Assembly (NCBI GenBank): GCA_950295325.1
Contig: OX485808.1
Span: 17,938,527-18,002,526 of the forward strand
Length of the DNA stretch: 64,000 nt
Source of the DNA: Polytrichum commune
Taxonomy: Eukaryota > Streptophyta > Polytrichopsida > Polytrichales > Polytrichaceae
Reading direction: 5' to 3'
Part shown: positions 10,443 to 64,000 of the stretch, one piece after another
How positions within the stretch are numbered: the stretch's first letter is position 1
Layout of the letters: every line of letters begins with the position of its first letter
The notes under the pieces: model-generated
Databases searched by the model: none
What the model was told of the DNA's origin: nothing
Seen by the model: the letters and a program-made list of their open reading frames with translations, nothing else
Made by a program: the position numbers and the translations under genes

Positions 10443-10559
10443 TAAGACAAGATTGGAGAAGGCTGAGGGTACATTAATTGGGATATGGTAAGACCTAGTC
10501 ACTATAGTTATTGCATCCCATACGAGAGGTGCATGTCAAATGTACTTAAATGACTTGTT

Positions 10560-10710: not shown

Positions 10711-10810
10711 GTGCTTTCAATAACTATAACTAAATCAAGGGAGGTTCGATTTTTCAATATGGTTTGTCAGATGTTTCATCCACGATGCACGCCCATACTC
10801 AACACCAAAT

Positions 10811-11711: not shown

Positions 11712-11719
11712 ACACCAAA

Positions 11720-13212
11720 CTAATCTTTAATCAACGGATAACTTTAATCACACAAACTATGAAGTCTATGTGCAAATTGGATATGGTCCCAATTTTTGTT
11801 CTGGTAACTATATATGAATGGCTACTTGTCTCAGTCATCGTTGTCATGCAGGGTTGTTGATTCTTAAATTGAAAATTTAAGTCATCCCAATTATGAACAC
11901 CTTTGAGTGTGGAGTACTTAAATCAATTCAAAGAGTTGGGCCCTAATCTTAGTTTAACATGTGTCTATATGGAGTTCGTTGTTTGACCCTCATCTAAGCA
12001 AACACAGGTGCAATAAAAAGTATGTGGATGTTGTTTGGTTCTATTTTCATGTTCTCCAACTTCTACCGATTAGATTTACTCGTCAAATTTTGTGTTGCAT
12101 TAGGAAATCTACTCTAAAATACTTGTAAAAGCCAGATTGAAAACCATTATATATATGTATATATATAGGTCCTCTTAATTGTGTTCAATTTTGAGTGTAG
12201 AGTAGTTATCCAAACTGGAAGATGTAGTCCAATCTCTACTGAACACGTTTGCTTATGATGTGTGCTCTTTGATCCTCACTGAACCACACACCAATCAAAT
12301 ATAGGGGTCTGATTAAAAAAACGAGCCACTTAAGACCCACCTACCTCAGGTGAACAATCAAATAAATTAACCGAATTACACCCCCAAGACTTAACAACTT
12401 GTGCGATGTCAACAACAATGACCATGTCACCTTTGCAGAGGTTGGATGCTTGACATGTGTCACCAAGTAGAGGCTCTTGCTGGCCTAGGGCTCCTTAGGA
12501 GGTGTAAGCTTAAGTGTAGGGGAACTTTGCTGTGGGAACGTGGATCCCAAGTTGGTGGACTTTGGGGAACGTAGAGCCCATGTTGGCTTACCTAGCCATA
12601 TCATGCCATGGCTTAGGGCTACTTCACACATGAGACTGAGAGCCCACGACCATTACACATCAAGCACTCTCATTGGTGGAAAAGGCGGAGCTGGTCTAAG
12701 TTTGCTTCACACTACGCTTGAGGGACCAACGGAGTATGTTAATGCAAGATGGATGTAAAGTCTACATGGACTTCTACATGGCATCAAATGGATCGTGTCT
12801 CATGGTCACTTGGATTATTTTCAAAAACCACTGCTTGGAGGTAGGCCTAACACACAATCGGGAGACCATGGCCTTCGGAACACTCACGACCATTGATTTA
12901 TTCTATTTGATCATGTGGGAGGAACCGCATGCATAGAAATTCATGCAAATAGCATTTGGTTGAAGGCCCAGTCATATATGACTTCACACTACACTTGAGG
13001 GTCCGTGATCACACTACATGATTATGGAGGTGTGTTGAGACGGCCTTTGGACACTTTCTTTTGGGCTCTCACAATTTCATGGTAATGGCTCTTGGATTGT
13101 GTGTGAAGTGGCCCTTAACCAACGATCAACCCTAGCATGCAGATATCATGGCAAGCTTAGGTGGCCGCTGTCAAAACACACTAATTTAGGTGTCAACACG
13201 CTAATTTATGTG
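11720..13212. other. Gene-free stretch with one inverted family B repeat
   Basis: Only short chance reading frames are present. An inverted family B copy lies at 12165-12305. The block at about 12480-13180 is less AT-rich but gives no recognisable protein on either strand. Confidence 0.5.
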
Positions 13213-13602
13213 TCATTTTAGAATGACAAAGACAATTTCAAATGGCAAGTCACAAAAATTACAACCTCAATGTTAATGAAGATTTTGTAATGTTTTTGAC
13301 CTCCAAGTTAATTACATGCTTCATTGATGGTTTCACTTGTGGAATGAAATTCCGATCAATTGCTTCTTTACTAATTGGAAATGCACATATATGTATATAT
13401 TGGATTTCAAACCTTGAAGGTGATGTGCACACAATATGGGATTTGTAGTCAAGCACCCTTCAAGAATGCAAGGGCAATTTGTTTTTCATCGTTGGGCGGG
13501 GCTAGCAACAGTTTTCGGTCCGGTATAGACATTTCTCTGGAGGGTTGCCCCAGCCCGGTCCTGATACCCTGGAAAGTTTGTGAGGGGGTGTCTAACGTCC
13601 AC
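13213..13602 (+). mobile_element. One-sided copy of the Mutator-like foldback family
   Basis: Similar throughout to 11320-11711 (for example TTTTAGAATGACAAAGAC at the inner end, CAAGAATGCAAGGGCAAT, and the outer end TCTAACGTCC). The opposite TIR is missing, so this is a truncated copy or a solo end. Confidence 0.6.
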
Positions 13603-14592
13603 CTAGTTCAGCTGTGGGTTTGTGTGATCACCACCTACTTGGTAGTGGTCAATGGGTAATAATTAAATAACGGTTAACCCTCTAATGATCAGTGCAAAAT
13701 GGGAATGCGAGCCCAAACACAATATCAACTTTACCGATAAATATCGGATAAGTCTATTATTGTGGGGAAAAAGTGCTTACGAATTTCTTTATGTAGCAAT
13801 ATCCATGGGGATGTTGAAGGTATGGACAAAAATAACTTGTAGGCATTTAAGGATTAAGATGACTTATTGACCCAATGACCCTTGACAATGATCGGGTGAA
13901 GCGTAACGAGTACAATTAGCATGGCTTGGTGGAGAATGGAATGCACACCACTTGCAAGGAAAAATGAGTCTCAATCTTTCAAACTATTGGTTTGATGCCT
14001 TCATTGCCTATAGAGGGCTCCATAAGATATTCACAATGTGATTTGTGGTGGGTAAAGTGGTGATATGATGGTAGTGAATTAACAACATCTAATTGATCCA
14101 ACCCAACATCAACAAATTTTTACAAGAAGGAACGCGTCCATAGAAACAAATAGGACCTTTAGTCAACATACACTTTTTTTCTTCTTCCAAGATACGAATG
14201 TCTAGACATGTGATTTCTACAACGTCAAACAAATCGTGCCTAATGAAATTCAATATTCTCTTAGTCTACGTTCATAGTAGCTCAACACCCTCGTCTCACC
14301 TTGACATGTGTTGTGACGTTACATGACGGTCAAAGGCCACGCCCCATCCATTTGCACATCTTGGAGACAACAAAATTCATCTTTGCAAACAAGTTACAAA
14401 CAATTCATTCCCTGTGAGGTCACCTAACCTTATGTTTTTTGTACACACATCGTTAATTGGGTACATTATGGGAGACTATTATGTCAGTATTTGGGAATTT
14501 AAGTAACACTAATTTCATAAAGGATTGGTGTTTCAAGCGTTTATTGACACCTTACAAATACTTATAATTTTCTATTTACGGGTTTTTCTAGG
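13603..14592. other. Gene-free AT-rich stretch
   Basis: No coding, RNA or repeat feature is recognised here. Confidence 0.4.
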
Positions 14593-18304: not shown

Positions 18305-20518
18305 TCAGGCCCTTGAATCCTGAGCCTGCAAACTCCCAATAGACTCGCTAGGAGCGGTGGAAATGTGGTCAGCGGTGAGTCCTTTTCGCTCCACTGTTAA
18401 GTTTACATGGTGGTATCTGAACCACTGATGGAGTTTATGGGCCTCCGGAAATCCCTCTGCCCAATTATTAATGTACAGAACCGCTGACGGAATCATGTGA
18501 AGAGATCTAGCGGGCACAACCCATTCCAGGACTTCAGAACTGAATGAATTGTGCACATGATGACGTCTCTGGAAGTGCTTGATGTATTCGTTGCAGATCG
18601 TGTCTTCCGGGTTTACATACAGATGAGGAACGTAGCCGATTTGAAGCAGCTTCTGGGAGTCTCTTTTCATGTTCTCTACGTTGGACGACTTGGCGATTTG
18701 GCTACCCTTCCTTGACAATGTTCCCAATATATTCGCACATACACTATACACCCTATCAGTACCTGCCCTTATGTTTAAGATGTTTTTCATGCCAAGAGTG
18801 TCGAGCAGTCTATTCCCTGTATCGCCCACACCGTTGAGGACACCCCGCATTGCTTTACTTGTCAGTCTACCAACGGTCAAGTAGGGGGGATTGAAGAGGT
18901 GGGGGTTGATCACAACACCGTCATCAATCGCAAGGGAACGAGTAGCAATAAGGGCGAATGCAGCTCCCAGCGAGTGCCCAGCAACCCATATATCGCGAGG
19001 GTTGTACTTACGAGTGATTGCCTGCAACAAACGCGTCACAGGCAACGCATCCTTTACATGCAAGACCTCACCAACAATCTTGATGTCGCTCCTTATGTCA
19101 TCAGAACAAGAGCGTATTGTACCTCGGATAGCGAACAAATACTTAGGCAGTCCCACAGGTATGAGCCGATCCTGGGGAGCCTGCACCGAATTGCAAAAAG
19201 AATCAGTCCGCATGGCACCCTTAAGAATCCTTGGACCAGAAACAATTAGCCGCTGCAAAGTAGGCTTCGGACGTAGAGAGTGACATGCAAACAGATTAGA
19301 GTGAGTAAATAACTGCAGTTTAAAAAAGGAAGACTGATATTCTAGGCTTCAAGGGACAGGGAGGAACTGCATTTTGGACAGTGCAAGAGATTTGTTTTTT
19401 GAAGGGTCGTTTACACTGGGGTGGTGGTGGATCTGGGGTTGTCACTGGCCGTGGTTATAATTTACTTACAATCTTCTTTTGTTCTACTTAAAAGATGGTA
19501 AATTCCAAAACCTCCTTTTACCCTCATCAACCCCACTACTCCGGATGCCTAAAACCTTTCGGGAGTAGTTAAAATTTTCCATTTTGTTGAAAATTAAAAT
19601 TTTCCATTTTGTGTTCGTGCTCATCTGGCATCATTAGGAAGCATGAAGACTAAGGTCCCGGGAGAAAGTTGAGGAAGGGAAGGGCCACATACATTCCCAC
19701 CCGAACTTGACCATGTAGATTGACGTCGGACACGTTCCCATTCCAACCTCGAAATCTCAACAGAAACGAGGTCGGCCTCGGTAAACCCCTCCAACCCTAA
19801 TAAAAAGCCATCTATTGTCATCCACTATTGAGATTTTGAGGCTGGGGTTGAGGTTGTGGAAATATAGATGATATCACGCCTACGCGTATGAAACATCGTG
19901 ACCAGTGCTCATAACCTGAGGATTGGTAGGAGGAACGGGAGGGAGCAGGAAGAGGATGACAGTTCGGCCGTCGCCGTGAAAGCTTGATCCTCTACAATGC
20001 AAGCGTGGACCTACAGGCTGCTTTTGGTGCGATTTGGCTCAAGAGTGGTGCGATCTACCCAAGGATGGGCCATCCTAATACCATTGGACAACACAAAATG
20101 GAAAATTTTAATTTTTCGGAGGAATAATGCAACTTCCAGGTACCTGACAGTCTGATCTTTTGAAGAGCAAAACGCGGACACATTGATCTTTAGATTGGCC
20201 ACGATCACTAACACTACGGCGGTCCTCATCCACCTCCTTGTATGCCCCAGCAAGGATGTCAAATCCAACAACCTCGTAACCCCAATACGTCCAATGGTCC
20301 TCGATATGTACAAAATATGGAACCCCCTCCTGCTGACAATTCTTGTAAATCCCTTCGATGATACACGATAGGACCTGCGAAACCTCTGGATCGTTCTTGA
20401 ATGCAATGCACTCTTTTGCGTCAAGAATGCGCTGGACAGTCTGGTTATCGTTCCGACGCCTTCCCAGGAATTTGCATAACTGTCCACCTACTCCAAGGGC
20501 AATGAGAAATGTGGCCAT
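18305..20518 (-). CDS. Class-3 (alpha/beta-hydrolase) lipase, At4g10955-like, copy 1
   Basis: Two exons: 20518-20144 (125 codons, donor CAG|GTACCTGG) and 19252-18305 (acceptor TACTTTGCAG), joined in phase to about 440 residues. Exon 1 starts with a hydrophobic segment (MATFLIALGVGG), possibly a membrane anchor, and contains the WTYWGYEVVGFDIL region. Exon 2 has FAIRGTI, the nucleophile elbow GHSLGAA (Ser near residue 96 of the exon), LFNPPYLT, and HLYVNPEDTICNEYIKHF with a likely catalytic Asp; a late His (SLHMIPSAV) could complete the triad. These match plant proteins called GDSL esterase/lipase At4g10955-like, which are really class-3-lipase-like hydrolases. The substrate is unknown. The gene is intact. 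Its paralogue is at 35486-38205. Confidence 0.8.
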
Positions 20519-35485: not shown

Positions 35486-38205
35486 TCAGGCCCTTGAACG
35501 CCAATCCTGAGCCTGGGAACTCCCAATAAACTTGCTAGGAGCGAGGGAAATCTGGTCAGCGGTGCGTCCTTGTCGCGCCACTGTTAAGTCTACATGTTGG
35601 TATCTGAACCACTGTTGGAGTTTATGGGCCTCCAGAGGTCCCTCTCCCCAATTATTAATGTACAGAACCGCCGACGGAATCATGTGAACAGATTTAGCGG
35701 GCACAACCCATTGGCTGACTTCAGAAAAGAATGTAGTATACACATGATGATGTCTCTGGAAGTGCTTGATGTATTCGTTGCAGATCGTGTCTTTCGGGTT
35801 TACATACAGATGAGGAACGTAGCCGATTTGAAGCAGCTTCTCGGAGTCTCTTTTCATGTTCTCTGTGTAGGATGACTTGGCGATTATTTGGCGACCCTTC
35901 CTTGACAAATTTTTCATTGGAATCTTACATTTATTAGCCACCTTGTCAATACCTGCCCTTATGTTCCAGGTGTTCTTCATGCCATAACCGTGGAGCACTC
36001 TATTCCCTATATCGCCCACACCGTTGAGGGCACCCCGCATTGCTTTACTTGCTAGTCTATCAACGGTCAAGTAGGGGGGATTGAAGAGGTGGGGGTTGAT
36101 CACAACACCGTCATCAATCGCAAGGGAACGAGTAGCAATAAGGGCGAGTGCAGCTCCCAGCGAGTGACCAGCAACCCATATATCGTGAGATATATCGTGA
36201 GGGTTGTACTTACAAATGATTGCCCGCAACAAACGCATCACTGCAGACAACGCCTCCCCTAAATGCAAGACCTCACCAGCAATCTTGATGTCGTTCATTA
36301 TGTCATCGTAACGAGAGCGTATTGTACCTCGGATAGCGAACAAATACTTAGGCAATCCCACACGTATGAACTGGTCCGGTGTGCCTTCAACTCTCATCCG
36401 AACGTGCGGGGGAGCCTGCACCGAATTGCAAAAGAAATCAGTCCACATGGCACCCTTAAGAATCCTTGGACCAGGAACAATTAGCCGCTGCAAGGTAGGC
36501 TTCGGACGTAGAGAGTGACATGCAAACAGATTAGAGTGAGGAAATTACTGCAGTTTAAAACGAGGAAGACTGATATTCTAGGCTTCAAGGGACAGGGAGG
36601 AACTGCATTTTGAACAGTGCGAGTGTTTTATTTTTCCAAGGGTCGTTTACACTGACGTGGTGGTTGGATCTGGGGCTGTCACTGGCTGTGGTTATAATTT
36701 ACTTATCTTCTTCTTTTGTTCTACTTAAAAGATGGTACAGTCCACAACCTCCTTCCTTCTACCCTCGTCAACCCCACTACTCCGCATGGCTAAAACCTTT
36801 CGGGAGGACGGTTCATGCTCATCTGGCACCACTCGGAAGCATCAAGACTAAGGTCCCGGGAGAAAGTTGAGGACGGGAAGGGCCACATTCCCACCCGAAC
36901 CTGGCCATGTAGATTGAGGTCGGACACGTTCCCATTCCAACCTCAAAATCTCAATAGAAACGAGGTCGACCTCGGTAAACCCCTCCAACCCTAATAAGAA
37001 GCCATCTATTGTCATCCACAATTGAGAAGCCGTCTATTGTCATCTACTATCGAGATTTTGAGGCTGGGGTTGAGGTTGGGATGGCCTTGCTCTTATCCAC
37101 AACCACCTTACTCGTACAAGCCAGTGTTGGGTGTTCTTTGACAAAGTTCCCGATCCACAATGTGCTTACCTCACATTGAAGGTTATACGGTTAGATGTAA
37201 CGACCCTTTAAACCTCAAGATGAAATCACTTCCTGACGATTTGTATGGACTAGATTACCGTGAGAGGAGAGTGGATGACGAGCTGCGCACTTCCGATCAG
37301 CATATGGACTAATCTTGGAATTATGGATGATTTCACGCCTACACGAATGAAACATCGTGACCAGTTCTCACAACCTGAGGATTGGTAGGAGGAACGGGAG
37401 AGAGCAGGAAGAGGTGAAGAGTTCGGCCGTCGCCGTGAAAGCTTGATCCTCCACAATGCAAGCGGGTACCTACAGGCTGCTTGTGGTGCGATTTGGCTCG
37501 AGTGGTGCGATCTACCCAACGATAGGCCATCCTAATGCCATTGCACAACACACAATGGAAAATACTAATTTTCCGGAGGAATAATGTACCTTCCAGGTGC
37601 CTGATTGTCTGATCTTTCGAAGAACACAACCTGGGCACATTGCAACCTCAACAACCTGCACGATGCAAGCGTGAGCCTACAGGCTTGTGGTGTGATTTGG
37701 CTTGAGACTGGTGCGATCTACCCAACGATGGGCCATCCTAACACCATTTCACAACACAAAATGGAGAAATTTCATTTTTCGGAGGATTAATGTAACTTCC
37801 AGGTACCTGAGTACTGTGTGATCTTTCGAAGAGCACAGCCCGGACACATTTATCTTCAGATTGGCCAAGATCGCCAACACGACAGCGGTCCTCGTGCACC
37901 TGATCGTATATAAGGTTGTCAAATTCAACAATCTCGTAACCCCAATGCGTCCAATGCTGGTCGAAATGTTGGAAATATGGACCCTGCTCCTGCTGCGCAC
38001 ATGTACAACGCTTGTAAACCCCTGTGACGATACACGACAGGAACTGCGAAGCCTCTGTCAGGTCGTTAAAGGTATTGCACTCGTTTTCGTCAAGCATGCG
38101 CTGGTAATTCTTCTCATCGTTCCGACCCCTTTCCCACATTTTGCGTCCCTGCTCCCATGCTCCTGCTCCGATGACCGCGGCCACAGCAATTGATACAAAC
38201 TCCAT
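35486..38205 (-). CDS. Class-3 (alpha/beta-hydrolase) lipase, At4g10955-like, copy 2
   Basis: Exons 38205-37807 (133 codons; ATG at 38205; donor TCAG|GTACCTGG) and 36487-35486 (acceptor CTTGCAG), in phase, about 466 residues. Exon 1 starts with a hydrophobic stretch (MEFVSIAVAAVIGAGAW). Exon 2 carries FAIRGTI, GHSLGAA (Ser near residue 111), LFNPPYLT and HLYVNPKDTICNEYIKHF. Relative to copy 1 it has an 11-residue insertion before the FAIRGTI block and extra residues before GHSLG (NPHDISHDIW). It is an intact paralogue created by the segmental duplication; sequence is close enough that both may be active or one redundant. The intron contains a partial duplicate of exon 1 (37480-37640). Confidence 0.8.
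37480..37640 (-). repeat. Partial duplicate of lipase exon 1 end inside the intron
   Basis: Resembles 37700-37860: the minus strand repeats the LCSSKDQT...HLE frame and a GT(G/A)CCTGGAAG donor-like site. Part of it (near 37440-37560) also matches the intron of copy 1 (20000-20110). It could act as a decoy splice region. Confidence 0.55.
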
Positions 38206-49577: not shown

Positions 49578-51847
49578 CACAAGGAACGTTTTTTGAATTC
49601 CATGTGTATGTTCCAAGATTTATGTATCTTTTCCCTACTTATTTTCATCATTTTCGGGATTCCCCTATGTTCTAATGTTGACTTGTAGGGGAACTCTAAA
49701 CATTTCTATTACACGGGGAAATGATTAGTTTACATTGTAGGGAAATTTGGACTATTATTTTACAACCAAGTGGTCATAGGGAATATAACTTATTTTCAAA
49801 GTGAGAATTTTCATAGAGGGGATTCGATCATAAAATAACATGGGAAATGTATTCTTTCTCTCAAAGAGGAAAATGTAAAATTGCAAGTCTATAGAGTTTG
49901 ATTGACATCTATTCATTGATTCACTTAGTTGGAATAATCAATTATGTCAACATGAATATCACTCAACAATTTTCAATTGGAATGTCAAGGGCCACTCACC
50001 TTTTTATTGACAAACACATAGAGTTCTATGATTAGACATATACACCATCCCATGAAATGGGGACACCCTTTGAAAACCCAGTGGCATGGTAATTTGAAGT
50101 CACATACTCCCCTAAACACTTCCACGACAATGGTGAATCTTGTACAAATGTTCAGAATTCTCCCTGTCGCCCTGCAATTCAAAAGCTACTCTAATTACAC
50201 TAAGATATATATATATATATATAAACATAAAATCACAAAACACAACACTAACCTGTGTGAGAAGATCCTCAATGGTCCGAAGTGGTGGCGAATAAAATGC
50301 TTGTCGTCTACTATCGGGGTAGACAACATTTTTTCCAACTAAACCCTCCATAATTACATCCCTTCGACATACATTATAACCCCCGTCTTTGAAACCACCT
50401 ATCTTCGTTTGAGCCGGATGATCCCCTGTCCACAACATTAACATACGTCGAATTCTAGATTTTCCATCCTCACACATTGGTAACATAGGGAAAATAAGAT
50501 GTGGAGGATAATTGTATACCACATCAAAACCATGAATAAAAAGTGACTCCAAATCACGAAACAAAGGCTCTAGAAAAGTTGTGAGAATTGATTCTTCAGA
50601 CTGCTTAATGATCTGTTTTGATGAGGCTGGAATACAAATCACGGGAATAGGACCAAGAGCATTGTTCTTTCCCTCATCCATAACTTCCAGTTCCACCACC
50701 CAAGTATCGTTGAACTTGGTCGTCGTTGTTAAGAATCCATCCCAATGACCAGCTAGAGCAAAATTCCTTGGATCTCCCTGCATAAATAAAACACAAAAGT
50801 AAAATAAGAAATAGTTTAACTTAACATCAAAATAAGAAATAAATCAGTAAAATAAAAATAAAACTTAATAAAAATCATAAAAATAGAAGAACTCCGAATA
50901 AACACTGACATGTACAAAAATCTTCTTGGAGATAATTTCAGATGAACAAATCAAGCATCTAAACTTATACTCGTGAAATATATCATCCCAACCATCACTT
51001 AGCTCTTGGCATGGATTGGGAAAAGCATGATACACTTCAAAGCAATTCTCATTATTGCATTTCACTGAAAGCTCTCATTTTTGTTCAGGATCCCAAAAAG
51101 CTTGATAAATTCTGAATTTGGAACCATCCCAAAATTCAGAAATTTGAGGAGGATGGTTATCAGGATGAACTCCACGCCATTTTTTACATTGCCTCCAATG
51201 CTCGAGAAACTCATGGCATTGTGTGCGACACAAACTCAACTGCTGCAATTCTGTTGCAATAGGTAGATAATCAAATGGAAGAATATCTTTACGAAGGGCC
51301 TTACAAATTGAACATTTCTCCCCACAGATTTTACAATTCCTCCTCAGTCTAGGACCTTCGAGACATAGGCACTTAACAACAGTTGCTCCTTCGTACTCAT
51401 CACTAGGTGCCAAAAGTTGTGGAGTGTGTGGTAAACCTATACTTCCAATTAATACTCTCCATCTTATTGGCTTTGACATTCCATTTTCTTCATACTCCTT
51501 CAACAACTTGTCATATGAGTTTGGAACCTCTAATTCCTGTCCAACTGATCCTGAAATATTTTTAAAAACAAATGTCAGACACAGAATGAAAATTAATATA
51601 AATTGGCATATTGATATTTATCACTTGACAGAAAATGACATAAGTTAAAGAAGTTTACCTGCATACGAGTAAAGCTGCCCAATATTCATTGATCCATAGT
51701 TGGTACTAGTATTCATTCCAATTATTCTTTTCATAATCTTCTCCTGTAGAGATACAAATGCTTTTCAAAAATCCAAATATGCTTGAAGTAAAACCATTTG
51801 TGTTTTCATAGCAAACTCGAGTATAAAGTTTTCTTGAGCAGGTAGTG
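49578..51847 (-). mobile_element. Internally deleted CACTA-like element (copy 2), 2.27 kb
   Basis: Comparison with the uninterrupted copies at 47056 and 23648 (TTTTGTACTTCTAC) gives the boundaries. The left end is CACAAGGAACGTTTTTTGAA, matching the 3' terminus of copy 1. The right end, reverse complement, starts CACTACCTGC. Left flank GTA and right flank GAA may be an imperfect 3-bp duplication. The 3' subterminal region (49610-49870) has repeated AGGGAA/TTCCC motifs like copy 1. The two ends share little beyond CACWA, so either one end has diverged or the right boundary is not exact. Confidence 0.68.
50253..51734 (-). pseudogene. Tnp2/CACTA-like transposase, 5' exons only (copy 2)
   Basis: Exons 51734-51659 (ATG at 51734), 51550-50910 and 50777-50253; phases agree, and the third exon is 525 nt, exactly as in copy 1 (4897-5421). 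The first two exons give MKRIIGMNTSTNYGS, a segment LIGSIGLPHTPQLLAPSDEY, a Cys-rich knuckle (CKICGEKCSICK), then TQCHEFLEHWR and FWDGSKF. The third exon has LWTGDHPAQTKIGG. A TGA at 51075-51077 replaces the TGG of copy 1. Exons 3-5 of copy 1 are deleted. It shows the real 5' end of the family, which copy 1 lacks or has degraded. Confidence 0.72.
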
Positions 51848-52716: not shown

Positions 52717-53389
52717 TACAAACATGTGAGCATGATCTCGTAGCTTTGAAAACAATATTTTGCTCAAAGTTGACATAATTTGGTTAGATTGATTTAAGGT
52801 ATCGTGTAATTATGAGTAAGAGTCCACTTCTAGAGATACATGCCTCTCACATGCCTGCAATTCTTGGTTGGCTTCCAAGTCAAAAAGAACACTACAATGT
52901 TTATGGTATTTAGTGTCACGTTCACTATTTACGAAGGGTGTGAGGCCAAACCACCCACCCTTAAGCGTCCTAGTCCGGGTGAGGGAATGGGGATCACATT
53001 CGTGTTCATATAACTCCCTCTTACCAACTTCGCACAAATCCATTTCATTTTCTATCAATTCTTGCACACCAATTTATTCCATAATACGAGTACAAGCATT
53101 GAAAAATGCGCTTCTCTATTTATTCCCTTCCTCCTACACTAATTCACAACCCCACACTCAAATCCCTACTAAAGCTTATTCCCTTATGCCACCCTCTAAG
53201 TTATATGAACCAACTCCACTAATTCACTAATGAGTTGAGCTCCTAATTAATTCTTCCCCCCCTCCCCCCTTTTCTAATTAAGTAGCCCTCATAATAAGTT
53301 ACCTTACTCTCTTCCCATATCCGGCCGGCTCATAACCGGCCCTATCCATGGGCCATGTCCGGTCCCATACCCGGCCTTAAATCCCAGCC

Positions 53390-53920
53390 TTCAGCTAAAC
53401 CAACAGCTCCTTAGTCCCATCCTTCGAGGCTAACCAGCAGCTCCTTAGTCCCAGCCTTCGAGGCTAAACCAGCAGCTCCTTAAATCCAACCTTCTAGCTA
53501 AACCAACAGCTCCTTAGTCCCAACCTTCGAGGCTAAACCAACAACTCCTTAAATCCAACCTTCTAGCTAACCAGCAGCTCCTTAGTCCAACCTTCGAGCT
53601 AACCAGCACCTCCTTAGTCCCAGCCTTCGAGGCTAAACCAACAGCTCCTTAAATCCAACCTTCTAGCTAAACCAGCAACTCCTTAAATCCAACCTTCAAG
53701 CTAACCAGCAGCTCCTTAGTCCCAGCCTTCGAGGCTAAACCAGCAGCTCCTTAATCCCAGCCTTCAAGTCTAAACCAACAGCTCTTTAAATCCAACCTTC
53801 TAACTAACCAGTAGCTCCTTAGTCCAACCTTCGAGGCTAACCAGCAGCTCCTTAGTCCCAACCTTCGAGGCTAAACCAACAGCTTCTTAATCCCAGCCTT
53901 AGAGCTAAGACCCCTAACTA
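53390..53920. repeat. Minisatellite, unit about 35 bp
   Basis: About 14 degenerate units of the form ACCAGCAGCTCCTTAGTCCC AGCCTTCGAGGCTA, alternating with a variant ...CTCCTTAAATCCAACCTTCTAGCTA.... Two unit types are interspersed rather than blocked. Confidence 0.85.
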
Positions 53921-54002
53921 ATTCCCCTACCTAATTCCACTAATTTCACTAAGTCCCCTCCTAAGTCCCGCATTCTTTCGAGCTCTAAGAGCTCAAAATC
54001 CT

Positions 54003-54004
54003 AG

Positions 54005-54040
<36 letters not shown>
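54003..54040. repeat. GA microsatellite
   Basis: About 17 uninterrupted GA units, extended by GGA-rich sequence to about 54072. Confidence 0.9.
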
Positions 54041-54044
<4 letters not shown>

Positions 54045-54527
54045 GAAGAGAGGAGAGAAGAGGAGGAGAGGGCACCCAAAACCACAAACCCCTTAACCCT
54101 CTCCTACTTAGTAGGACCTTATATCACTATATTCGTTAATCGGAGATTTTTGAAAGTCTCAAAATTAAATATGCCCATAGTTTGGGATGCCAATATTGTG
54201 GGCATATAGAATATTGGGAACATCAAGAACATGATGATTTATAAATTCGCATGCGAAGAATATTCTCATTACTAAAAATAGAAAGTCTCAATTACAATGA
54301 AAACGTGTAGTCCATGTGAAAAATAACAATGGACTTTTAAAAACAAATTGTTTATGTCATTTTAGAGTTTAGGGTGCCCATCCCAAAAGTAAGGGTCTTA
54401 TAAAGTTGGATGACACATCCCAAACATATGCCACAATGGAATGTGACAAGTCTACTAAGTCTATTAAAAACCAAGCTTGCTAAGCTCACATGCCTCTCGC
54501 CATTAACTCCCACCTAGTATGTTATGT

Positions 54528-57500
54528 TTACCCATCTCCATCTTCCGCTTCATATCCATTGTCCGAGTCATTTTCCGCAGCTGCAATACGTGCCAAATTG
54601 TCCTTGGCAAAATCTATATGTTTTTGGGGAATGGTCATTGATTCTGTTTTGGAACCTTTGCGCGGCTTCCAAGCACAAAGTATAGTATCCGTGTTTATCC
54701 GAACCGGTTTGTACGCTGAGTCCACTGTCCACTTGAAATTCTTTTTGGTGTCCCAACCTAAATAAGTGCGAAGTACGTTCTGGTCTTTAGTGCTTGGACG
54801 GCAATATTCCACCTCAATTTGACGAAAGTTGGGGCTAGTTCGAACAAAATTGGGTGAAGACAATGTTTTCACCAACCAAATTGGTTTGGGATGCTCCTCA
54901 TCCCCAGCTCGTACGAGCACCAAATAACCTTCATGGCAATCAACCCCAACACGAAACGACAGTGCCGGTCGATTGCGGGCAGGGCCAACGTAATGTTCAT
55001 CCATTGCGAACTCTTCACGAACGTCTCCATTGTTGAAAAACATGGTGTCAGACTTGACAACCGTCAAACGACTTTGTGGCCAAAACCCTTGTGTCAAAGT
55101 CGTACAGGTGTCGCCATCAACTGTCACTAGGGCCGAGCGAATGCGATCCCAATATGAAATCAATGGTTCATGAGTATCTCTAACACATCTAGTGATGTCC
55201 TCCTCACACAACTCCTTCCAATATTCAATGAATCCGGATATGCCTTTGATGATCTCCGGTCGATTCCTCATGGGGTTGGGTTTACAAGGCTTTGGATCCC
55301 CATCCGGGAGCAAACATTTCCCATCATTGTCTTGACACCATACTAGTATACCGTCATCCGGGCCCCAATTAGGAGATGTGCACAAAAGCTTGAATTGTAT
55401 GGCCGGGAGACCATCATCCCTCATATAGAATCGGAATTGTTGTGCTTTGGTGTGTCCCACCAAACGGTCCCTTCCTTTCAACATGTATGGCTTGATGAAG
55501 GCCTTAAAATCTAGTACTTCCTCGATCATGTGCGGAATCACCGGCATATGGTCCAAATCCATATACAATTTCATAAGAAGTGGTATGGTTGGAAAATCTT
55601 CCTCATGCAACTTCATGCTCCACCGTCCGAAGGACGCATCAATGTCGTCATGTATGTGTCCCACCATCAAGAAAGACAAAAACACCTCCTTGAAGATACC
55701 TTTTGCCACAAGCAAAGACCAAAAACAAAATACGTATCGACATTTGTTGTCCTTTGCGCAATTATCAAGTTGAACGTGGAGAGTTGGAGGCAAAAGTTTT
55801 ACACAAATAAGCTCTCTGGATGTTTTCTGCAATGACGACATACAAACCTCCTTATCCGCAAGCACTGTCTCGTAAAGGGGTGTCGTTCCACACCCATCAA
55901 ACAATGCACGTGAAGACTATATCGGCGGTTTCTCTAGATCGCGCAAGAGTTTTGCAAATGAACCCACCGTGTGGTTAGTATCGCCAGGGTAAAAATCCAA
56001 ATCATAATGGGCATATTTTACGTCCCCATGGCCGTGGGCAATCATACCTATAAAAAACAAACGATGGATTAATCTCCAAAAAAATGAAGAGACCACTGAA
56101 GTAGAACATTTGGAAAACACACCCAATAAAATTGGATTTATGGTGAATATAGGTTTGTGATGCCATACAAACCTGTTACAGATACGGGCAACTTGAAAAG
56201 ACCATCCGTGGCCTTTATTTTGCGAGCATAACAAGGGCATGCGGTCTTCGAGTGGTCCATTTTATCATGGATAACTGTTAGAACCTCTGTAGGCCTCATT
56301 ATGGACAAAGCACGGTTCTTGTAGTAATCTTGACGGTGAGCCTCTTGGTTGTTGACATGTTCAATATATTTTGCCTGATGCCTGCTATGAGACTCAGTAC
56401 CTATGGGGTGGGCAACTCGAAGACCTTTGTATTTTTCACACGTCGTGCACCTCGCGAACTTGTCACCAAGTCTCTTCAAAATGTATTCTGCAAATTGTTG
56501 GTTTTTAATGACACTCAACTTGGACAAAGAAATGGGCCCACAACTCGCTATGCGACCCACTTCGTTGATATCCGTTAATATGTTCTTCCATTTTGTGCCC
56601 GTGGGCAACACCATTCGAACAACTTTCTCCCCTATCGACAACGTCCTCGTCTTGTGGGGCATTGCATCGGCCAATGGCACTATGATCGTGGAGAGTGTGG
56701 CGGAGGCTTGGAGTGTAGCCTCCCTAGGTTTCTTTGTGCCCGCATTGCCATGAAATCGAGAGCGACGACCCAAGGATGAATACTTTCTAAACCTATAAAA
56801 GTCAGCCTTGGAGACGGCATGAATGGTATACCATGCGGTACAACACACTTCCACATTCTCGAGGGTGACCACCTTATGGCCATGGGCATCAAGGTGCAAA
56901 TTTCTATGGACCTCGAGTTTCTTTGCTGACCTCATACGAAAATCTGCTAGCCACATCTCCTGACGCAAAGACTTAATTTTTTCGCGGTGGAAAAATTGGC
57001 AACATCTTTTTGCACAACAGTCCTTGGCGGACACGAGACGGATAGAATCGTCTCCTAATATGCGATCATGTCGACGCTCTTTATCCTTAGGAGGCGCGCG
57101 GCTAGAATCATATCTACAGAGGCCTTTGCGAGGACGAGTGTTGGAAACCAAGGTTGATTGAACTTGCTCATGCCGTCGCCCATGATCCCACAAGCTTACT
57201 TCTTCATGAAGAACCCGACGAAGGGACCATCGGCGCAATGAAAACCTCCAAGTCACAGGGACCTCAAGCGGAAGCAAAGAATTCAAGATGCACACCCCAA
57301 CATCATGGAGACCAAGGGGATTGGCATCAACACATTCACGGGGATCGGAGTTTCTACATATGTCATTTGCCACCGGGACACCTAGATCATTAAGTAGAAC
57401 CACATCAAGGCCCACCCATTTCTCCCTACCATATCCTGCACACAAAGGAATGTCATCGTCGTCCACACCGGAATGTAGAGAACGGTCGTGCACTTGAAAA

Positions 57501-57649
57501 GAATCATGAGAGGATGTACGCAATGACACACCCTCCACGTTTGTGTCGTCAAAACTACCCGCGGATGAGGATGAAAGTTCACATTCACGAACGGAGGACG
57601 ACATGTCTGTTGACAACTCCAGAGAACTACCACCCACATGCATCGCCAT
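54528..57649 (-). pseudogene. DUF7869-type, DDE-transposase-like gene, two exons, one internal TAG
   Basis: Exon 1 57649-56173 (ATG at 57649, directly after a TTTTTGTAG acceptor, so a 5' UTR intron is likely) and exon 2 56047-54528; introns CAG|GTTTGT...TTATAG. Spliced length is exactly 999 codons. Exon 1: acidic/Ser N-terminus, Cys-rich CCAKRCCQFF region, VCCTAWYTIHAVSKADFYRF, CTTCEKY and, near residue 465, IHDKMDHSKTACP. Exon 2: HVQLDNCAKDNK (Asp near 586) and FLMVGHIHDDIDASFGRW (near 624-629). This is the conserved core of DUF7869 proteins; the spaced acidic residues suggest an RNase-H-fold DDD/E nuclease, which is inference. A TAG at 55917-55919 (between KPPI and SSRALFDGCG) breaks an otherwise perfect frame, so this copy is probably inactive or needs read-through. 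The C-terminus is acidic. Upstream it faces the palindrome array starting at 57757. Confidence 0.72.
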
Positions 57650-57756
57650 CCCACCTACAAAAACCAGAGGCACCAGGAGACCCAAACGTAAACGAAAGAA
57701 TGACAGCCAATATGGACAACATTCAACGCAACATGCCAAATCAGTCAAGTTCTAAA

Positions 57757-58743
57757 TACGAACGTCCGTTCGTATACAACTGCAATAATGAATGTGCATG
57801 TGTGTGGAAGTCAATAACTTAGAAAGCCTTTCAAGGTGCTATCATATTGATCGCAGGTGGAATTTACGAACGTGCGTTCGTTAATTACAGACCATCGACC
57901 TGCATGAGCAGAACGCAGAAGTTTTTTATACGAACGCACGTTCGTATAGCATAGGATGAATGAGTTTGGGTATAAAGGTTTATAAACGAGGAGTATTTCT
58001 TGGAAACCAGGACAAAACTCGCATGTTGTATTCACGAGAAAAATTTGTAAATCACAACTATCCGGAATTTCCAAGAGTATATCGGGACAAAATAGATAGC
58101 ATGTTTACGAACGCACGTTCGTAAAACCATAGCAATCACTATCTGCACGTGTACACCAGAAAATCATAGATGGCGTACTTACGAACGCACGTTCGTAAAT
58201 GAACAACCATTATATTTATAATTATACACACATAAAAGCGTAGATGCCACATTTACGAACGCACGTTCGTAAATGAACCACCATTCGCACTGCATATGAT
58301 TGATATACATGTGTCACAACGTCGACTATGGTCTACTTTGGTAGTTACGAACGCACGTTCATAAACCCACAACATTCCGTCCGATCCAACAGTTCTAGTG
58401 ATGGGACCTCGTCTTTACGAACGCACGTTTGTAAAACCACAACAACCCCTATCTGAAGGTGTACACCAAGAAATCATAGATGGCGTACTTACGAACGCAC
58501 GTTCGTAAATGAACAACCATTATATTTATAATTGTACACACATAAAAGCGTAGATGCCACATTTACGAACGCACGTTCGTAAATGAACCACCATTCGCAT
58601 CGCACATGATTGATATACATGTGTCACAACGTCGACTCTGGTCTACTTTGGTAGTTACGAACGCACGTTCGTAAACCCACAACATTCCGTCCGATCCAAC
58701 TGTGCTAGTGATGGGACCTCATCTTTACGAACGCGCGTTCGTA
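57757..58743. promoter_or_regulatory. Palindrome array 1: 12 copies of TACGAACG-NN-CGTTCGTA
   Basis: 18-bp cores start at 57757, 57865, 57929, 58106, 58180, 58254, 58346, 58416, 58490, 58564, 58656 and 58726. Nine are perfect; those at 57865, 58346 and 58416 have one mismatch. The central dinucleotide is TC, TG, CA (nine times) or CG. Many extend by one or two further paired bases (TT...AA). The array lies just upstream of the start of the minus-strand transposase-like gene, in its promoter or 5' UTR intron. Most likely a binding site for a dimeric protein; hairpin formation is another possibility. Confidence 0.85.
58106..58725. repeat. 310-bp tandem duplication inside palindrome array 1
   Basis: 58106-58415 and 58416-58725 are near-identical; each of the four inner palindromes has a partner exactly 310 bp away. 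Within a unit the sites are spaced 74, 74, 92 and 70 bp. Two sites that are imperfect in the first unit or at the junction (58346, 58416) are perfect in their partners. Confidence 0.9.
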
Positions 58744-58744
58744 A

Positions 58745-59138
58745 GTTTCCGGTATTTGCGGCGGTATATTAGGGATATGCTATGTCATGTACCTGTGAGG
58801 AGTACGGTTGGCGAACAGGAGGGTGGCTTGAGCGCGCTCCGACGACTCTCTAGAGCGCACACCTCCCGTCAGCCGCAGAAAAGAGCTCTTCCGTGGGGGG
58901 AAAAGCTTTAAGTACCTCCCCCCGGTGGTTCAAAATCTCTTGGATGCTCTTTAAAAAGCGGATTCCCACCCCCTACCTAGACCTACCAATATGCCATTCC
59001 CGCCATGCGATTCCCGCCATGACCAATTATATAAATAGCATTTTGTATGCAACATGTATTGCATGCACGCACATTATATTGGAAAAAAATGTAAATTAGT
59101 CGCACACCTTAGATGTAACCAAGGTCTGAACAACCAAA

Positions 59139-59180
<42 letters not shown>

Positions 59181-60980
59181 ACATGATATTTAAATATTAT
59201 GAATTTTGACATAGAAGATTAAATGATTTGCAACCAAGGTGTGAAGTCCAAGTTAATGAACAATTCATATCTACTACAATAATGGTATATTTGGTAATTG
59301 GAGTCATTTAGTTGATTTTGAGACTATTTAAGAACGCACTTTAAATTTCAAATATGGACTTGTAATTACAAACTAAAATTTCCATACGTATAGTTTCCAA
59401 ATCGGATGCAACTAACATTAGACATAAAGGCATTGAAGTGAACGAAATTATGAAACATAGTTACATGAAAATATTTGCACATGAAATGAGAAATAGACCC
59501 CAAAGGAAGGGAACATACCGAGAATTAATGGAACTTGAATCAATTCAATGGAAATACCATCCATAACTCTTAACCTTGATATATAAAAGAAACTAAATAT
59601 AGAAACTATATTTATATCACTCAATAAGGTGGGAGTGGGACTCATGGACCCATGAATAGAAAATCATTGACGCATGAATTAAGGGCCTAAGACATGCAAG
59701 TTATAATAATATTAAGTATGGATTGTGTGATCAGATTCTATAATAACTATTAAGTTATTATTTCATCATAACTCTTAAGTTTCAAGTTTCATTAATCACA
59801 TAAACCAAATTTTTGTCTCAATTCAATTAATTTAGAATCTCCAAATGACAATCGGCATGATTCTCAATTATTACGATTGATATGAATCGAATAAAGCAAT
59901 TTCCAATCCATCGAACATCGGTAGATCATTTTGACATGCCCATAGATCACAACATGGCCACATACAAGACTACCATGTAAGATACAAAGATGCAGGGATG
60001 TAGAGTTTAGGGTTGGTGATAGTGTTTAGGGTTTAGGGTTTAGTGTATTCGACCACATGGCTGCAATGCACAAGTTCAATCTAAAATGTCCTCAGATGAA
60101 TGACGATAAACAAAATTCAAGCATGTTTACTAAGTTATTGAAGTTAATGTGATAGACGCATCCATTACATATAGGGTTTACAAATCATGAATTTAATGTG
60201 AACTCATTACTTATACATTCAAGTCGTTATAAGTGTTACATATTGTAGAATGTTTCATTCAATTAATAGTTAAGTTGAATTATATATACTATCGTTTATG
60301 CTTTTTTTGTATTAAACCTTAGGGTCCTCTTTTTAAAAACAATTAGTGTTATTTCTATAAATGTTCATGGTTTTGGGTTTTAGTTGTACAAGTGTTACTT
60401 GTACATTTTGTATAGTTGTTCTTTTTTAAACCCCCCCACCCAAGGCTGATTTTTCACAAAGTTTTTGCCCGTCCACGTCCAAAAACCTTGAATTGAAAGG
60501 CAAAAAAAATTGCAACCCGTCCCAAAACCGGTAATTATTTCTAAACCAACCCGTCCATGGAAAGGTTAAAGGAAAAACAACCCGTCCCAAAACAGGTAAT
60601 TTCTAAACCAACCTGTCCATGAAAAGGTTAAAGAAAAAAACCAATTAATAAAGATAAACCGAAAGATGTTGGCATGTGATTGGTTGCACTTGGAAACAAT
60701 AGGATTTTGCTTCAATGCCATCAGTACTATGTCTTTTTGCTAATTTCAGCTGCCACCACCCGCATTCCCTCCATGACATTGCCCCCCCCCCCCCAATTTC
60801 TTCCATTTGAGTTTTGAAGCTCTTCCCATCGAGCAGGTATTGAAGCTCTTCCCATTGACAAATCTGAGTTAGTTAGGTATCTCTTACACACATTCTTTCT
60901 ATATCTTTTGGGCATGAGGGATTATGAGGTTTTGGGTGAAGGATTTGAGTTTTTTTTTTGGAACAAGAACTGGTAGGCTT
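58745..60980. other. Gene-free interval between the palindrome arrays (left part)
   Basis: 58.80-58.93 kb is GC-rich (GAGCGCGCTCCGACGACTC). Then AT-rich DNA with a TA microsatellite (59142-59177), a telomere repeat (60025-60043), and repeated ACCCGTCCCAAAAC-like blocks (60450-60640) that also occur at 61480-61560, flanking the hAT remnant. A run of 13 C is at 60782-60794. No gene recognised. Confidence 0.5.
59142..59177. repeat. TA microsatellite
   Basis: About 18 TA units. Similar shorter tracts are at 50208-50222 and 52687-52713. Confidence 0.9.
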
Positions 60981-61570
60981 CGCGGTCGAGGAGATTCAAC
61001 CTACCTTTTTGTGTCATGCATTGCAATATGTGAGAGGGGTTTTCCTAAACAAAACCTAATCAAAAATCATCTACGTACTAGTTTGAAGTTAGAAACTTTA
61101 GATGCTTTGATGCGCTTTTCATGTGCAAATATTCCAGTTGAAAACATCAATTGGAATGCAGTGATGCTTGTTTGGAGAAACATGAAGGATAGGAGAATTC
61201 ATCCACTTCTTTGAAGGGTAAGTAGGTATTTATTTTTAAAATTTTGATCATAAGTGTACCTTCAATTATAATCTTTGACATTATGTTAAAAAGGTTCTAA
61301 ATTTTGTGGTTGATGAATTAATGTATGCAGGTGAATCAAGCACTTCAATTTGATATATTGATTGGGTATTAGTGGTTTGATTGCATTATGCTTATATTCA
61401 CATGTCATGTATGACATAATGTAATTGATATTTATACCATTTATGTTTTTTGGACAAAAATTATAAAAACATTATTTTTAGAACCCGTCCAAAGTAAATT
61501 TGACACGTCCAAAAACCGGTTCATTTTCTAAGAATCCGTCCACTGGAAATGTTTTTTTTTATGAACATGT
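60450..61570 (+). mobile_element. hAT remnant flanked by CGTCC-rich subterminal repeats
   Basis: Both sides carry several (A)CCCGTCC / CCGTCCA motifs (60470-60615; 61482-61545) around a hAT transposase fragment, as expected for subterminal repeats. The ends and target duplication could not be fixed. Confidence 0.45.
60990..61214 (+). pseudogene. hAT transposase C-terminal fragment
   Basis: The frame reads CERGFPKQNLIKNHLRTSLK, then LETLDALMRFSC and ENINWNAVMLVWRNMKDRR, the hATC dimerisation motif. It is related to but clearly distinct from 39346-39606. The start at 60924 is in low-complexity T-rich sequence and is not meaningful. Confidence 0.7.
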
Positions 61571-62600
61571 CCCTAGACATGTTAGGGACCTTTTGAAAAA
61601 TGCCCCTACCCCCCTTCATCTACCCATATCTACCCATCCCATCCCACCCATCCCCCTCACACCCTCCCATCTCCACCCATCTCCCCTCCCCATCCCCACC
61701 CATCCCCCCCCCTCCTCATCCCTTCCCATCTCCCATGCTCATCCCTTCCCATCCCATCCATGCCCAAGCGCGGGCCAGTGGAGGGATGCCACATGGCAGC
61801 CGCAGGGAAACCCTAGCGGTGCCGGCTACCTCCCCGCGCCCCTTCCTCTCCTCCTCATTCTCATTCCCAGCAGAGAGAGGAGGAGCGAAGTAGAGCGGAG
61901 CGAAGCTCTCGCAAAATTTAGAATGCTTTAGTTTATGTGTTTTTTTGGCATCTTAGGAGTCGCATCTTTCTCTTCAGTTTGGAACGAATCTTATTAGAGA
62001 GCTTCAGAGTTGTGTGCATCAGGAGTAGAGAGCTTCTGAGGTTGTGAGCTTGTGCAGGTTGCAAGCTTTTTTTTTTTTGTTGTTTTTGTAAGCTTCATAG
62101 TTGCAAGTCTGGAGGAGACATCTTGCTAGGTGAAAGCTTGAAGTTTGTAGGCTTCAGAGTTGCAAGCTGTGCTTTAGTGGTTGTTTTTGTGAGCTTGATA
62201 GTTGCAAGCTTGGAAGAAGGGAACTTGAGAGTTGCAAGATTGCAATTTCAATGCACATGAGTAGTTGCTAGGGTTTAGGTCTCATTCAATTGTATACAAG
62301 GAGAGTTCCAAATTTTTCAGCAAGAAGAAAGAAGGTCAAGCACATTGCAATGTGAGTGAAGTAATCCTTCTAAACTCGCTTCCCAAACATTTTGAAATTC
62401 TGCATTGTTGAATTCCATGGGTTTTGTTTGTATTGTCAACTTGTTTAGCATGAGATCTGGCATGTTGTGTATGCTTTATGAATTCTGCACTGGTTTGGTT
62501 TCAGTATCCTGGTTCTGATCCAGTGTTGTAGGCACGAACGCAAGCATTCTTCAGAGCTGAAATGCATACGTATACGTATACGTACATGTACGGACACAAT
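61571..62600. other. Low-complexity region before palindrome array 2
   Basis: 61605-61780 is a CCCATC-rich pyrimidine tract. 61780-61915 is GC-richer. 61960-62250 repeats motifs like AGAGTTGCAAGCTT about six times. Could be the promoter and 5' UTR of the gene at 63222; no coding region is recognised. Confidence 0.45.
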
Positions 62601-62611
62601 GCATTCAAGAA

Positions 62612-63188
62612 GTTCACATTTACGAACGAGCGTTCGTAAATGTGAACACAACCTGCAAACCAAACCTGTTGTGACCCCTCCCAGTCCATGTGTTTACGAA
62701 CGCACGTTCGTAAACACGCAACCCAGCCTCTGTTCATGTGTTTACGAACGCGCGTTCGTAAACACGCACCCCTAAACCCCTAAACCCCTAAACCCCTAAA
62801 ATTTACGAACGCTCGTTCGTAAACAAGGAATACATAATACTCTGAGTATTTACGAACGCACGTTCGTAAACACACAATCCCTTCCCATACCTCATTATAC
62901 GAACGAGCGTTCGTAAGTGACTTGCCTTGTGCCCGTCCAAAGATTTACAAACGTGCGTTCGTAAACACATATTGGACAACTTGAAGATATAAATCAGTAC
63001 AAGTCACAACATAACAAAATAATATAAACACAGTGGTATTTAAAACACATAAACTTCTAAAGCCAAAAGAATAGCCTCTCAAACAGAACACATTTAGGAA
63101 CGTGCGTTCGTAAATATCTCAACAACCATTGTTCAAAATATTTGAAAATTGTAGAACTCTGTCTGCTAAATACGAACGCTCGCTCGTA
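62612..63188. promoter_or_regulatory. Palindrome array 2: 9 copies of TACGAACG-NN-CGTTCGTA
   Basis: Cores start at 62621, 62695, 62743, 62804, 62851, 62898, 62946, 63095 and 63171; the first six are perfect, the last three have one or two changes. Central pairs are AG, CA, CG, CT, CA, AG, TG, TG, CT. The middle sites repeat every 47-48 bp. The first site extends to 17-bp arms (62612-62647), and the next two to GTG...CAC. The last core ends 33 bp before the ATG at 63222, and a TTTTGCAG acceptor touches that ATG, so at least part of the array probably lies in a 5' UTR intron. Confidence 0.85.
62769..62800. repeat. CCCCTAAA x4 tract within array 2
   Basis: Four exact 8-bp CCCCTAAA units, one C longer than the plant telomere repeat, between two palindromes. 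It may be degenerate telomere sequence or an unrelated microsatellite. Confidence 0.85.
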
Positions 63189-63221
63189 AATACGATCCTG
63201 ACTACCTATGTTGTTTTGCAG

Positions 63222-64000
63222 ATGGCCATCCCTAACAGAAGCGCGATAGAGATGTTCGGGGAGAAGTTGGAGAGTGTCCCAGAGTCGGTGACCGACGACA
63301 ATGGGAATGACAATTATGTCCCACAGGAGGACTTCATGAAAGAGTGGACGGCGCTTCCAGAGATGTTAGAGGATGGAACATTCGTCCTCCGCTTCGTCTA
63401 CCAGCTCAATACCAAAGACGATTAACTAGAGCAGTGGGTGCAGATGGCAACATGGGAGATAGATTCCGTGGAGGCACAGGGCAATTACGTAATCTTCAAC
63501 ATGAAGTACAACAATGACCACGTCAACGTGTTGCTGGACTACTTGGCATACACCTTCTCCCACAACTATGCGCAGATGCATGTTAAAGAGGAGGGAAAGT
63601 GTTTCGATCTGACAAAACTCTTCACAAGATATAGCCTAAGTCAACACTGGACAGCCAGGAAATTGACCGCTTTGTGCTTGAACATCTCCAAGACCAACAG
63701 TGCTGTGTTGGAGGCCAACAAGAAGAAGAAGAGTCCCAAGAAACCAATGCAATCCGGTGCAGGCGGATCCAGAAGTGCTCCGCGGCTTGTTCCCACTGCG
63801 AGCAGATTGACGGAAGGTACCAGCAGACATTCCACTCCTTTGAAGAGAACGAGGGACGACATGGAGAAGTCTGGCGTAACTGAGGGCGCAGAGGTCAGTT
63901 CCCCGCCAGTCATGCCGGCTCCGTTGCAGAATGGAGAGGTACCGGACGGTGCGAAGGCCACGCGCATCCTTCGAGATTTTAACAGTTACTCGAAGGACTG
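63222..64000 (+). CDS. Uncharacterised element gene behind palindrome array 2; in-frame TAA; runs off the window
   Basis: ATG at 63222 follows a TTGTTTTGCAG acceptor. The frame is open for 67 codons (MAIPNRSAIEMFGEKLESVP..., acidic), meets TAA at 63423-63425, and then stays open in the same frame to the window edge (about 190 codons), with protein-like content: LEQWVQMATWEID, NVLLDYLAYTFSHNYAQMHV, a basic KKKKSPKKP (possible nuclear localisation signal) and a Ser/Pro-rich tail. Codon use is GC-richer than the surroundings. No family is recognised. Its position mirrors the DUF7869 gene relative to the palindromes, so a partner protein of the same element, perhaps the palindrome binder, is plausible. 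The stop could be a nonsense mutation or a sequencing error. Confidence 0.5.

Follow-up and report, generated by a model that had tools for sequence, protein, structure and literature searches.

A 64,000-nucleotide stretch of the Polytrichum commune genome (assembly GCA_950295325.1, contig OX485808.1, positions 17,938,527 to 18,002,526 of the forward strand), referred to here as the window, contains the left part of a DNA transposon with two outward-facing genes, gene 1 on the minus strand and gene 2 on the plus strand, each preceded by an array of short palindromes (Table 1). A sequence-only reading of this DNA had reported 21 copies in two clusters (12 and 9) before the gene pair, and all of them were found where it had placed them. 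These copies of TACGAACG-NN-CGTTCGTA comprise 15 exact sites and 6 with one mismatch among the 16 arm bases, versus an expectation of 0 from 100 dinucleotide shuffles; in the rest of the window, TACGAACG is absent and CGTTCGTA occurs singly, at 41082. The nearest copy of the left array lies 108 bp from the likely ATG of gene 1 (57649), the distance from the right array to the gene-2 ATG (63222) is 33 bp, and tandem duplication units of 310 bp and 74 bp are found within the arrays.

The central dinucleotides of the 21 copies are CA (11), TG (3), CT (2), AG (2), CG (2) and TC (1). CA and its complement TG thus account for 14 of the 21 centers, partly because the 310-bp tandem duplication copied four CA sites, and the variable center that had been proposed is thus not fully free within the window. 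Seven element copies, with 152 exact sites between them, show 14 of the 16 possible dinucleotides. The 18-bp unit first described has the arms as given but is shorter than the conserved site: in the window and the seven copies there is a strong preference for T at the two bases before the arms and for A at the two bases after them, so that the conserved unit is a palindrome of about 22 bp, approximately TTTACGAACG-NN-CGTTCGTAAA.

Gene 1 is composed of two exons separated by a 125-bp intron, and its initial designation as a DUF7869-like gene on the minus strand was borne out by a Pfam profile search, which identified DUF7869 (PF25273) with an E-value of 1.5e-37 and 129.5 bits against a cut-off of 26. 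To judge from their sequence, its acidic motifs DKMDHSK, QLDNCAKDNK and GHIHDDID could be catalytic. One in-frame stop codon is present in each gene (TAG at 55917-55919 and TAA at 63423-63425), and the window copy therefore looks damaged. The predicted splice sites suggest a location in leader introns for both arrays and in gene-2 introns for further sites, two of which closely follow GT donors; a similar GTAG/G...ATGG precedes the gene start in one of the sister families described below.

The arrays belong to a DNA transposon with terminal inverted repeats (TIRs). The family TIRs, AACACTATATTCG...CGAATATAGTGTT, were identified at both ends of a copy designated E and of eight further copies, and the window element carries ATCACTATATTCG at 54123 and CAAATATAGTGTT with its last base at 76611; each differs from the family TIR at one base, and TTAT flanks the element on both sides. 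Copy E spans positions 5070-14560 of its own sequence, with CATA on both sides. The eight further copies were picked from scored gene pairs of one common subfamily and fetched at both predicted ends, and six of them have identical flanks; in total, 8 of 10 insertions show 4-bp target duplications (TTAT, CATA, ACCT, ATGT, ATAA, CAAG, CTAA and TTCT), and the 4-bp flanks of the other two do not match. Three additional copies, A, B and C, each have a single end within the fetched DNA. Copies A and B have the common order DUF7869, array, array, gene 2, and copy C contains gene 2 and the arrays; the sole scored DUF7869 match on the gene-1 side of C is about 40 kb off in the right orientation (C1:2419078; C1 is one of the contigs searched), and its membership in C is a guess. 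Copies B and C lack the outer stretch of the window element at about 69200-75500, which is probably a nested insertion. Separately, the non-coding middle of the element (59286-59551) resembles the right end of the transposon, inverted, in copies B, C and E.

Table 1. Features of the transposon and its two genes in window coordinates; a slash marks a predicted splice junction.
Feature	Position	Strand	Remarks
DNA transposon, left part	54123..64000	.	Runs beyond the window to contig position 76611 (window-style coordinates)
Left terminal inverted repeat	54123..54147	+	Start conserved in the window element, A, B (one change), E and eight further copies
Gene 1 second exon with DUF7869	54528..56047	-	PF25273; in-frame TAG
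Gene 1 intron, 125 bp, GT...AG (inferred)	56048..56172	-	Without palindrome
Gene 1 first exon	56173..57649	-	CxxC and His-rich stretch near its end; 75-91% match to copy A, 82% to copy B
Possible gene 1 5' leader intron containing the left array	57655..58792	-	Donor CACAG/GTACATG, acceptor TTTGTAG/GTGGGATGG; splice sites by eye, predicted
Left palindrome array, 12 copies	57757..58743	.	Includes the 310-bp tandem duplication (58104-58434 and 58414-58744)
Possible gene 2 5' leader intron containing the right array	62352..63221	+	Donor AAT/GTGAGT, acceptor TTTTGCAG/ATG; by eye, predicted
Right palindrome array, 9 copies	62621..63188	.
Gene 2 first coding exon	63222..64000, on past the window	+	ATG directly after TTTTGCAG; in-frame TAA

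On the gene-2 side, beyond the window, additional palindromes are present in probable introns, together with an open frame encoding an NIF-type (CTD-phosphatase-like) domain, which was detected with E-values of 6.5e-16 in the window element and 2.9e-16 in copy C. This NIF/SCP-type phosphatase domain is located at L050:4743-5513 and L058:5723-6505, that is, in two copies of different subfamilies, and the frame may derive from a captured host gene or may belong to gene 2; among solved structures, the frame of copy C weakly matches CTD small phosphatases (best E-value 0.011). Pfam matches above the cut-off were absent from the first gene-2 exon of the window and, in copy C, from the first three frames on the gene-2 side. 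Searches against solved structures gave no match for the first gene-2 exon of copy C and no useful match for the gene 1 protein (P0001; best E-value 0.32), and P0001 had no match among viral contigs. Relative to the window, the first exon of gene 2 is 67% and 71% identical in copies A and B, the DUF7869 exon 90% and 89%, and the first exon of gene 1 75-91% and 82%, respectively.

To place the palindromes in the genome, 407.8 Mb in 64 contigs were searched. A total of 4680 exact palindromes were identified, with 0 for a reversed control, and when any spacer from 0 to 14 was allowed the number rose only to 4682 (reversed control, 2), which indicates that the spacing is rigid and the spacer is two. 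Up to two mismatches gave 9483 places versus 338 for the reversed control. Sites were placed individually in the first 2.54 Mb of C1 and at one array pair, the remaining places being counted only: of the first 100 exact places (C1:1-2.54 Mb), 98 fall in five clusters, which correspond to copies E, B, A and C and to one cluster adjoining scored matches of both genes, and the remaining 2 are among degenerate copies. The further array pair lies between scored matches of both genes at C1:5769456-5774152. The palindrome is thus distributed genome-wide, as a satellite would be, but it is linked to the element. In databases outside the plant, the 18-base form was found in 4 records of a bacterial and archaeal collection of 257 billion bases, with one copy each, which is about chance by our own estimate, and the 16-base form in 7 viral records, also with one copy each.

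The two genes recur as a unit. The best 92 of 1792 first-look candidates were scored for the DUF7869 exon (90-100% identity) and the best 147 of 797 candidates for gene 2 (66-100% identity). A scored gene-2 match was found within 40 kb of 74 of the 92 DUF7869 matches, where 2.7 would be expected by chance. In 66 of the 92 the layout is divergent, and 61 of these pairs are 5-12 kb apart, in agreement with the two-gene element originally postulated; a further 8 have a non-divergent gene-2 partner and 18 have no scored partner.

Another possibility is that the arrays are neutral, tandem repeats that grow by duplication and travel with the transposon. Tandem duplication is clearly involved, as seen in the 310-bp and 74-bp units, and in the newest duplication the arms are not demonstrably better kept than the spacers. 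However, single orthologous sites retain their arms while the center and flanks drift. This was established in the gene-2 region of the window element, B and C, which are 75-80% identical there. Sites carrying no more than one mismatch were identified in each sequence in turn (12 in the window element, 8 in B and 8 in C), and the aligned positions of the other two were compared with them; arm positions that fell in gaps, as many as 32 of 192, were excluded. Differences amount to 1.6-6.8% in the arms, 25-36% in the centers and 27-34% in the flanks, with p at most 2e-12 for arm versus flank and at most 0.003 for arm versus center in six of six comparisons, which are non-independent since they derive from three sequences. 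Neutral repeats would also leave unexplained a spacing fixed in 4680 of 4682 sites and sister families that repeat the format with other letters, and we consider this account very improbable. A satellite as the full account is ruled out by the linkage of the sites to the element and by arm conservation, and the earlier view of a dimer-type site rather than a plain satellite is upheld by the rigid 2-bp spacing and by arms that are kept around a free center at orthologous sites.

The sister families were reached through a relative sharing 44% with the DUF7869 exon, which scores 83.6 bits against the PF25273 profile. Among the best 103 of 1600 candidates scored, groups at about 87-100%, 82% and 52% identity to this relative were found, the 82% and 52% families being assigned to DUF7869 by that similarity. 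Other palindromes are present upstream of one member per family, 2.1-2.9 kb from the scored stretch. In the 52% family (locus L083) there are 12 sites of GTTTGGGTCG-NN-CGACCCAAAC, nine of them exact and the nearest approximately 200 bp before the gene start, and the protein of this gene matches the gene-1 N-terminus of the window family (41% identity, E-value 9e-14). Locus L082, from the 90-100% group, has three sites of TTTCCTCTCG-NN-CGAGAGGAAA, with 0, 1 and 2 mismatches, and in the 82% family a 551-base piece (L084) contains one site, CTTTCACTCG-AT-CGAGTGAAAG. With spacers of 0-14 allowed, the genome contains 9905 places for TTTGGGTCG/CGACCCAAA (spacer 2 in 99 of 100 listed), 284 for TTCCTCTCG/CGAGAGGAA (spacer 2 in all 50 distinct places listed) and 236 for TTTCACTCG/CGAGTGAAA (50 of 50 distinct places listed span 20 bases, hence spacer 2), and each reversed control gave 0. 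Seven 90-100% genes account for all 50 listed TTCCTCTCG places, each of which is upstream of one of them at a distance of no more than 40 kb, and no listed place is near a scored window-family match on C1; 45 of the 50 listed TTTCACTCG places are upstream of an 82%-family gene (0.14 expected by chance), and none is near a 90-100% gene. The four families have the common format TTT-body-CG-NN-CG-body'-AAA, in which the body differs, even between families approximately 82% identical in protein.

These four bodies bear on the possibility that a host transcription factor binds the palindromes and that the transposons gathered its sites for their expression. The position of the sites close to both gene starts and in probable introns would suit such a factor. 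Four bodies on one spacing with a common CG-NN-CG core fit better with co-evolving proteins of the elements, and in the first 2.54 Mb of C1 the exact sites are confined to the five element clusters but for the 2 among degenerate copies; binding by a host factor as the origin of the arrays is therefore judged improbable.

Copy E is a deletion derivative that retains both ends and both arrays, with 33 exact sites, and it has no detectable match to the three query proteins, although at the DNA level remnants of the gene-1 start and the NIF region persist. In a genome-wide search with a 231-base piece across its left deletion junction, the best 40 of 307 candidates were scored: 38 of the 40, E included, match all 231 bases at 97-100%, ten including E have the top score, and the other 2 are partial. 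The arrays of the coding-deleted derivative were checked in E only. The derivative keeps approximately 7 kb of central, mostly non-coding DNA and its junction has multiplied, which suggests that this DNA matters in cis, or is tolerated.

A palindrome with two free central bases also recalls a site of recombination, and the sequence-only reading had raised the idea of a variable crossover dinucleotide. Serine-recombinase sites indeed have palindromic arms around two free bases. Nevertheless, no recombinase family was found among the proteins scanned, a dozen or more such sites per element would be expected to delete it, and the ends are TIRs with 4-bp target duplications; nothing that was tested supports the proposal, and we regard it as extremely improbable. 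A second possibility is that the arrays serve transposition itself: an accessory protein or the transposase would bind them and so join the ends, as TnpA does at the subterminal repeats of Spm/En. The coding-deleted copy, which retains both arrays and whose junction has multiplied, indicates that the arrays may be needed in cis, and in CACTA elements the motifs to which an accessory protein binds are subterminal and vary from one subfamily to another (PMC2613891). The arrays described here, however, are not subterminal, as 3.6 kb separate the left end from the left array and the right array lies far in the interior, and more sites on the gene-2 side are in probable introns; a role in joining the ends is thus rather unlikely.

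We favor the reading that a two-gene DNA transposon uses the arrays as operators, to which its own dimeric protein binds for expression against silencing, and put its probability at roughly 60%. The fixed two-base gap, symmetrical arms, arm-only conservation and family-specific bodies are the expected trace of a dimeric element-encoded binder. From the sequence, we infer that protein binding takes place, that one of the two proteins is responsible and that the effect is activation or anti-silencing, the favored effect being anti-silencing or self-activation. The dimeric binder, either the gene-2 product or the N-terminal portion of the DUF7869 protein, would occupy each 22-bp palindrome and read approximately ten bases per half across the fixed two-base gap. 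Bound in clusters within leader regions and introns, it would sustain transcription of the element and defend its open state from silencing by the host, and the effect would reach all operator-carrying copies, including derivatives that lost their genes. Each DUF7869 family would have altered its operator body, and presumably the matching protein surface, so as to recognize only itself.

Several results weigh against this interpretation. No DNA-binding domain was recognized in gene 2 by Pfam, and the only fold obtained (P0001 of gene 1, from a single sequence) is too poor to be of use, with a pLDDT of 31.6. In the 310-bp duplication, differences number 3 of 80 in the arms versus 18 of 245 in the spacers (p 0.31), and in three close copies the arm values of 2.1, 1.8 and 0.5% stand against 4.3, 4.0 and 1.5% (p 0.048, 0.041 and 0.18). 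Among the sister families, 5 of the 50 listed TTTCACTCG places have no scored gene nearby, and 2 of the 9 scored 90-100% genes in the listed C1 span (2262286, a fragment, and 57728410) lack an exact family site upstream, no array being present in the stretch preceding the fragment (L079); an 87% gene (21254124) likewise lacks an exact TTCCTCTCG/CGAGAGGAA site upstream. Finally, the palindrome with 9905 places is tied to its family through one locus (L083), and the fourth palindrome through one fetched site and positions.

A transposon protein that acts on internal motif arrays of its own family is of a known kind. For VANC in the VANDAL elements of Arabidopsis, motif binding and loss of methylation have been demonstrated (PMC5735166; PMC10398659). 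In VANDAL elements, short motifs are described as packed in non-coding parts, including introns and upstream regions, in arrays that grow and shrink by tandem duplication, with a motif that varies between related families and a faster-evolving second protein beside a more conserved transposase, here paralleled by gene 2 versus the DUF7869 exon (PMC5735166). The leader and probable-intron position, the tandem growth of the arrays and the fast-evolving second protein thus match VANC. The VANC motifs, however, have a reported length of 8-9 bases and a single orientation (PMC5735166), whereas the present sites are 22-bp palindromes with a fixed 2-bp gap. The elements in P. commune also differ in their 4-bp target duplication and DUF7869 gene, no VANC (DUF1985) or MULE transposase Pfam match was found in gene 1 or the scanned gene-2-side frames, and whereas binding and hypomethylation are shown for VANC, binding is a proposal for the present elements.

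CACTA transposons carry CACTA at the very end and make 2-3 bp target duplications. No Transposase_21 match was found in gene 1 or the scanned gene-2-side frames, a subset of the frames of the element. The likeness to Spm/En is that an element-encoded binder is proposed to co-evolve with repeated, subfamily-specific motifs outside the TIRs, but the CACTA motifs are subterminal (PMC2613891), whereas here they are at leader regions and probable introns; moreover, the TIR here begins AACACTA and the duplication is 4 bp, compared with 3 bp for the soybean CACTA element of that work (PMC2613891). Chapaev and Sola elements also came into consideration on account of the 4-bp duplication. CMCT transposons such as Chapaev are reported to have, mostly, CA..TG termini and 2-5 bp target duplications (PMC12730594); the inner CACTA..TAGTG of the present elements is similar, whereas their termini are AA..TT outside the CACTA. 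DUF7869 (PF25273), the function of which is unannotated in Pfam, is here tied to TIR transposons with 4-bp target duplications. In the open-access literature searched, no publication naming DUF7869 was found, nor were the palindromic rigid two-half format, the four parallel codes or the link of DUF7869 to transposons with 4-bp duplications.

The surroundings of the element in the window are themselves repetitive. At 17629-53000 there is a large tandem segmental duplication with paired Lipase_3 genes (18305-19348 and 35486-36544), and the transposon adjoins one end of it. The stretch left of the transposon (52800-54122) is a repeat, 97.3% identical to one on its right at 77795-79104, and a tandem repeat of 15.5 copies of 35-bp units occupies 53375-53908, near the left end. 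Inverted stretches with open frames, 72% identical, are located at 50112-51617 (minus strand) and 4897-5439 (plus strand); a weak, sub-threshold match to Transposase_21 (E-value 8.6e-4) was obtained for the frame at 4897 and none for the other frames of the pair, and on sequence grounds the pair is possibly a CACTA-like element. An R13L1/DRL21-type LRR region with an internal 138-bp tandem duplication is present at 254-1885.

The chances are about even that DUF7869 elements are an unrecognized group of plant DNA transposons in which every family has its own two-half operator, constant in frame (TTT...CG-NN-CG...AAA) and free to evolve in its body, that a dimeric protein of the element reads. 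On this view the genome contains at least four orthogonal protein-DNA pairs on one scaffold; the exact sites number about 15,100, with spacers of 0-14 allowed in three of the four counts. To our knowledge, the known systems of transposon-encoded regulators that change their targets are VANC and TnpA. The question addressed by the present elements is how such regulators shift their targets yet keep them: four related families have identical operator geometry, different letters and hundreds to thousands of natural sites each, so that the recognition code is directly testable by protein/operator swaps. If the reading is true, DUF7869 elements would be assigned a role and could be the source of a set of orthogonal DNA-binding domains, possibly sensitive to methylation, for use in plants.

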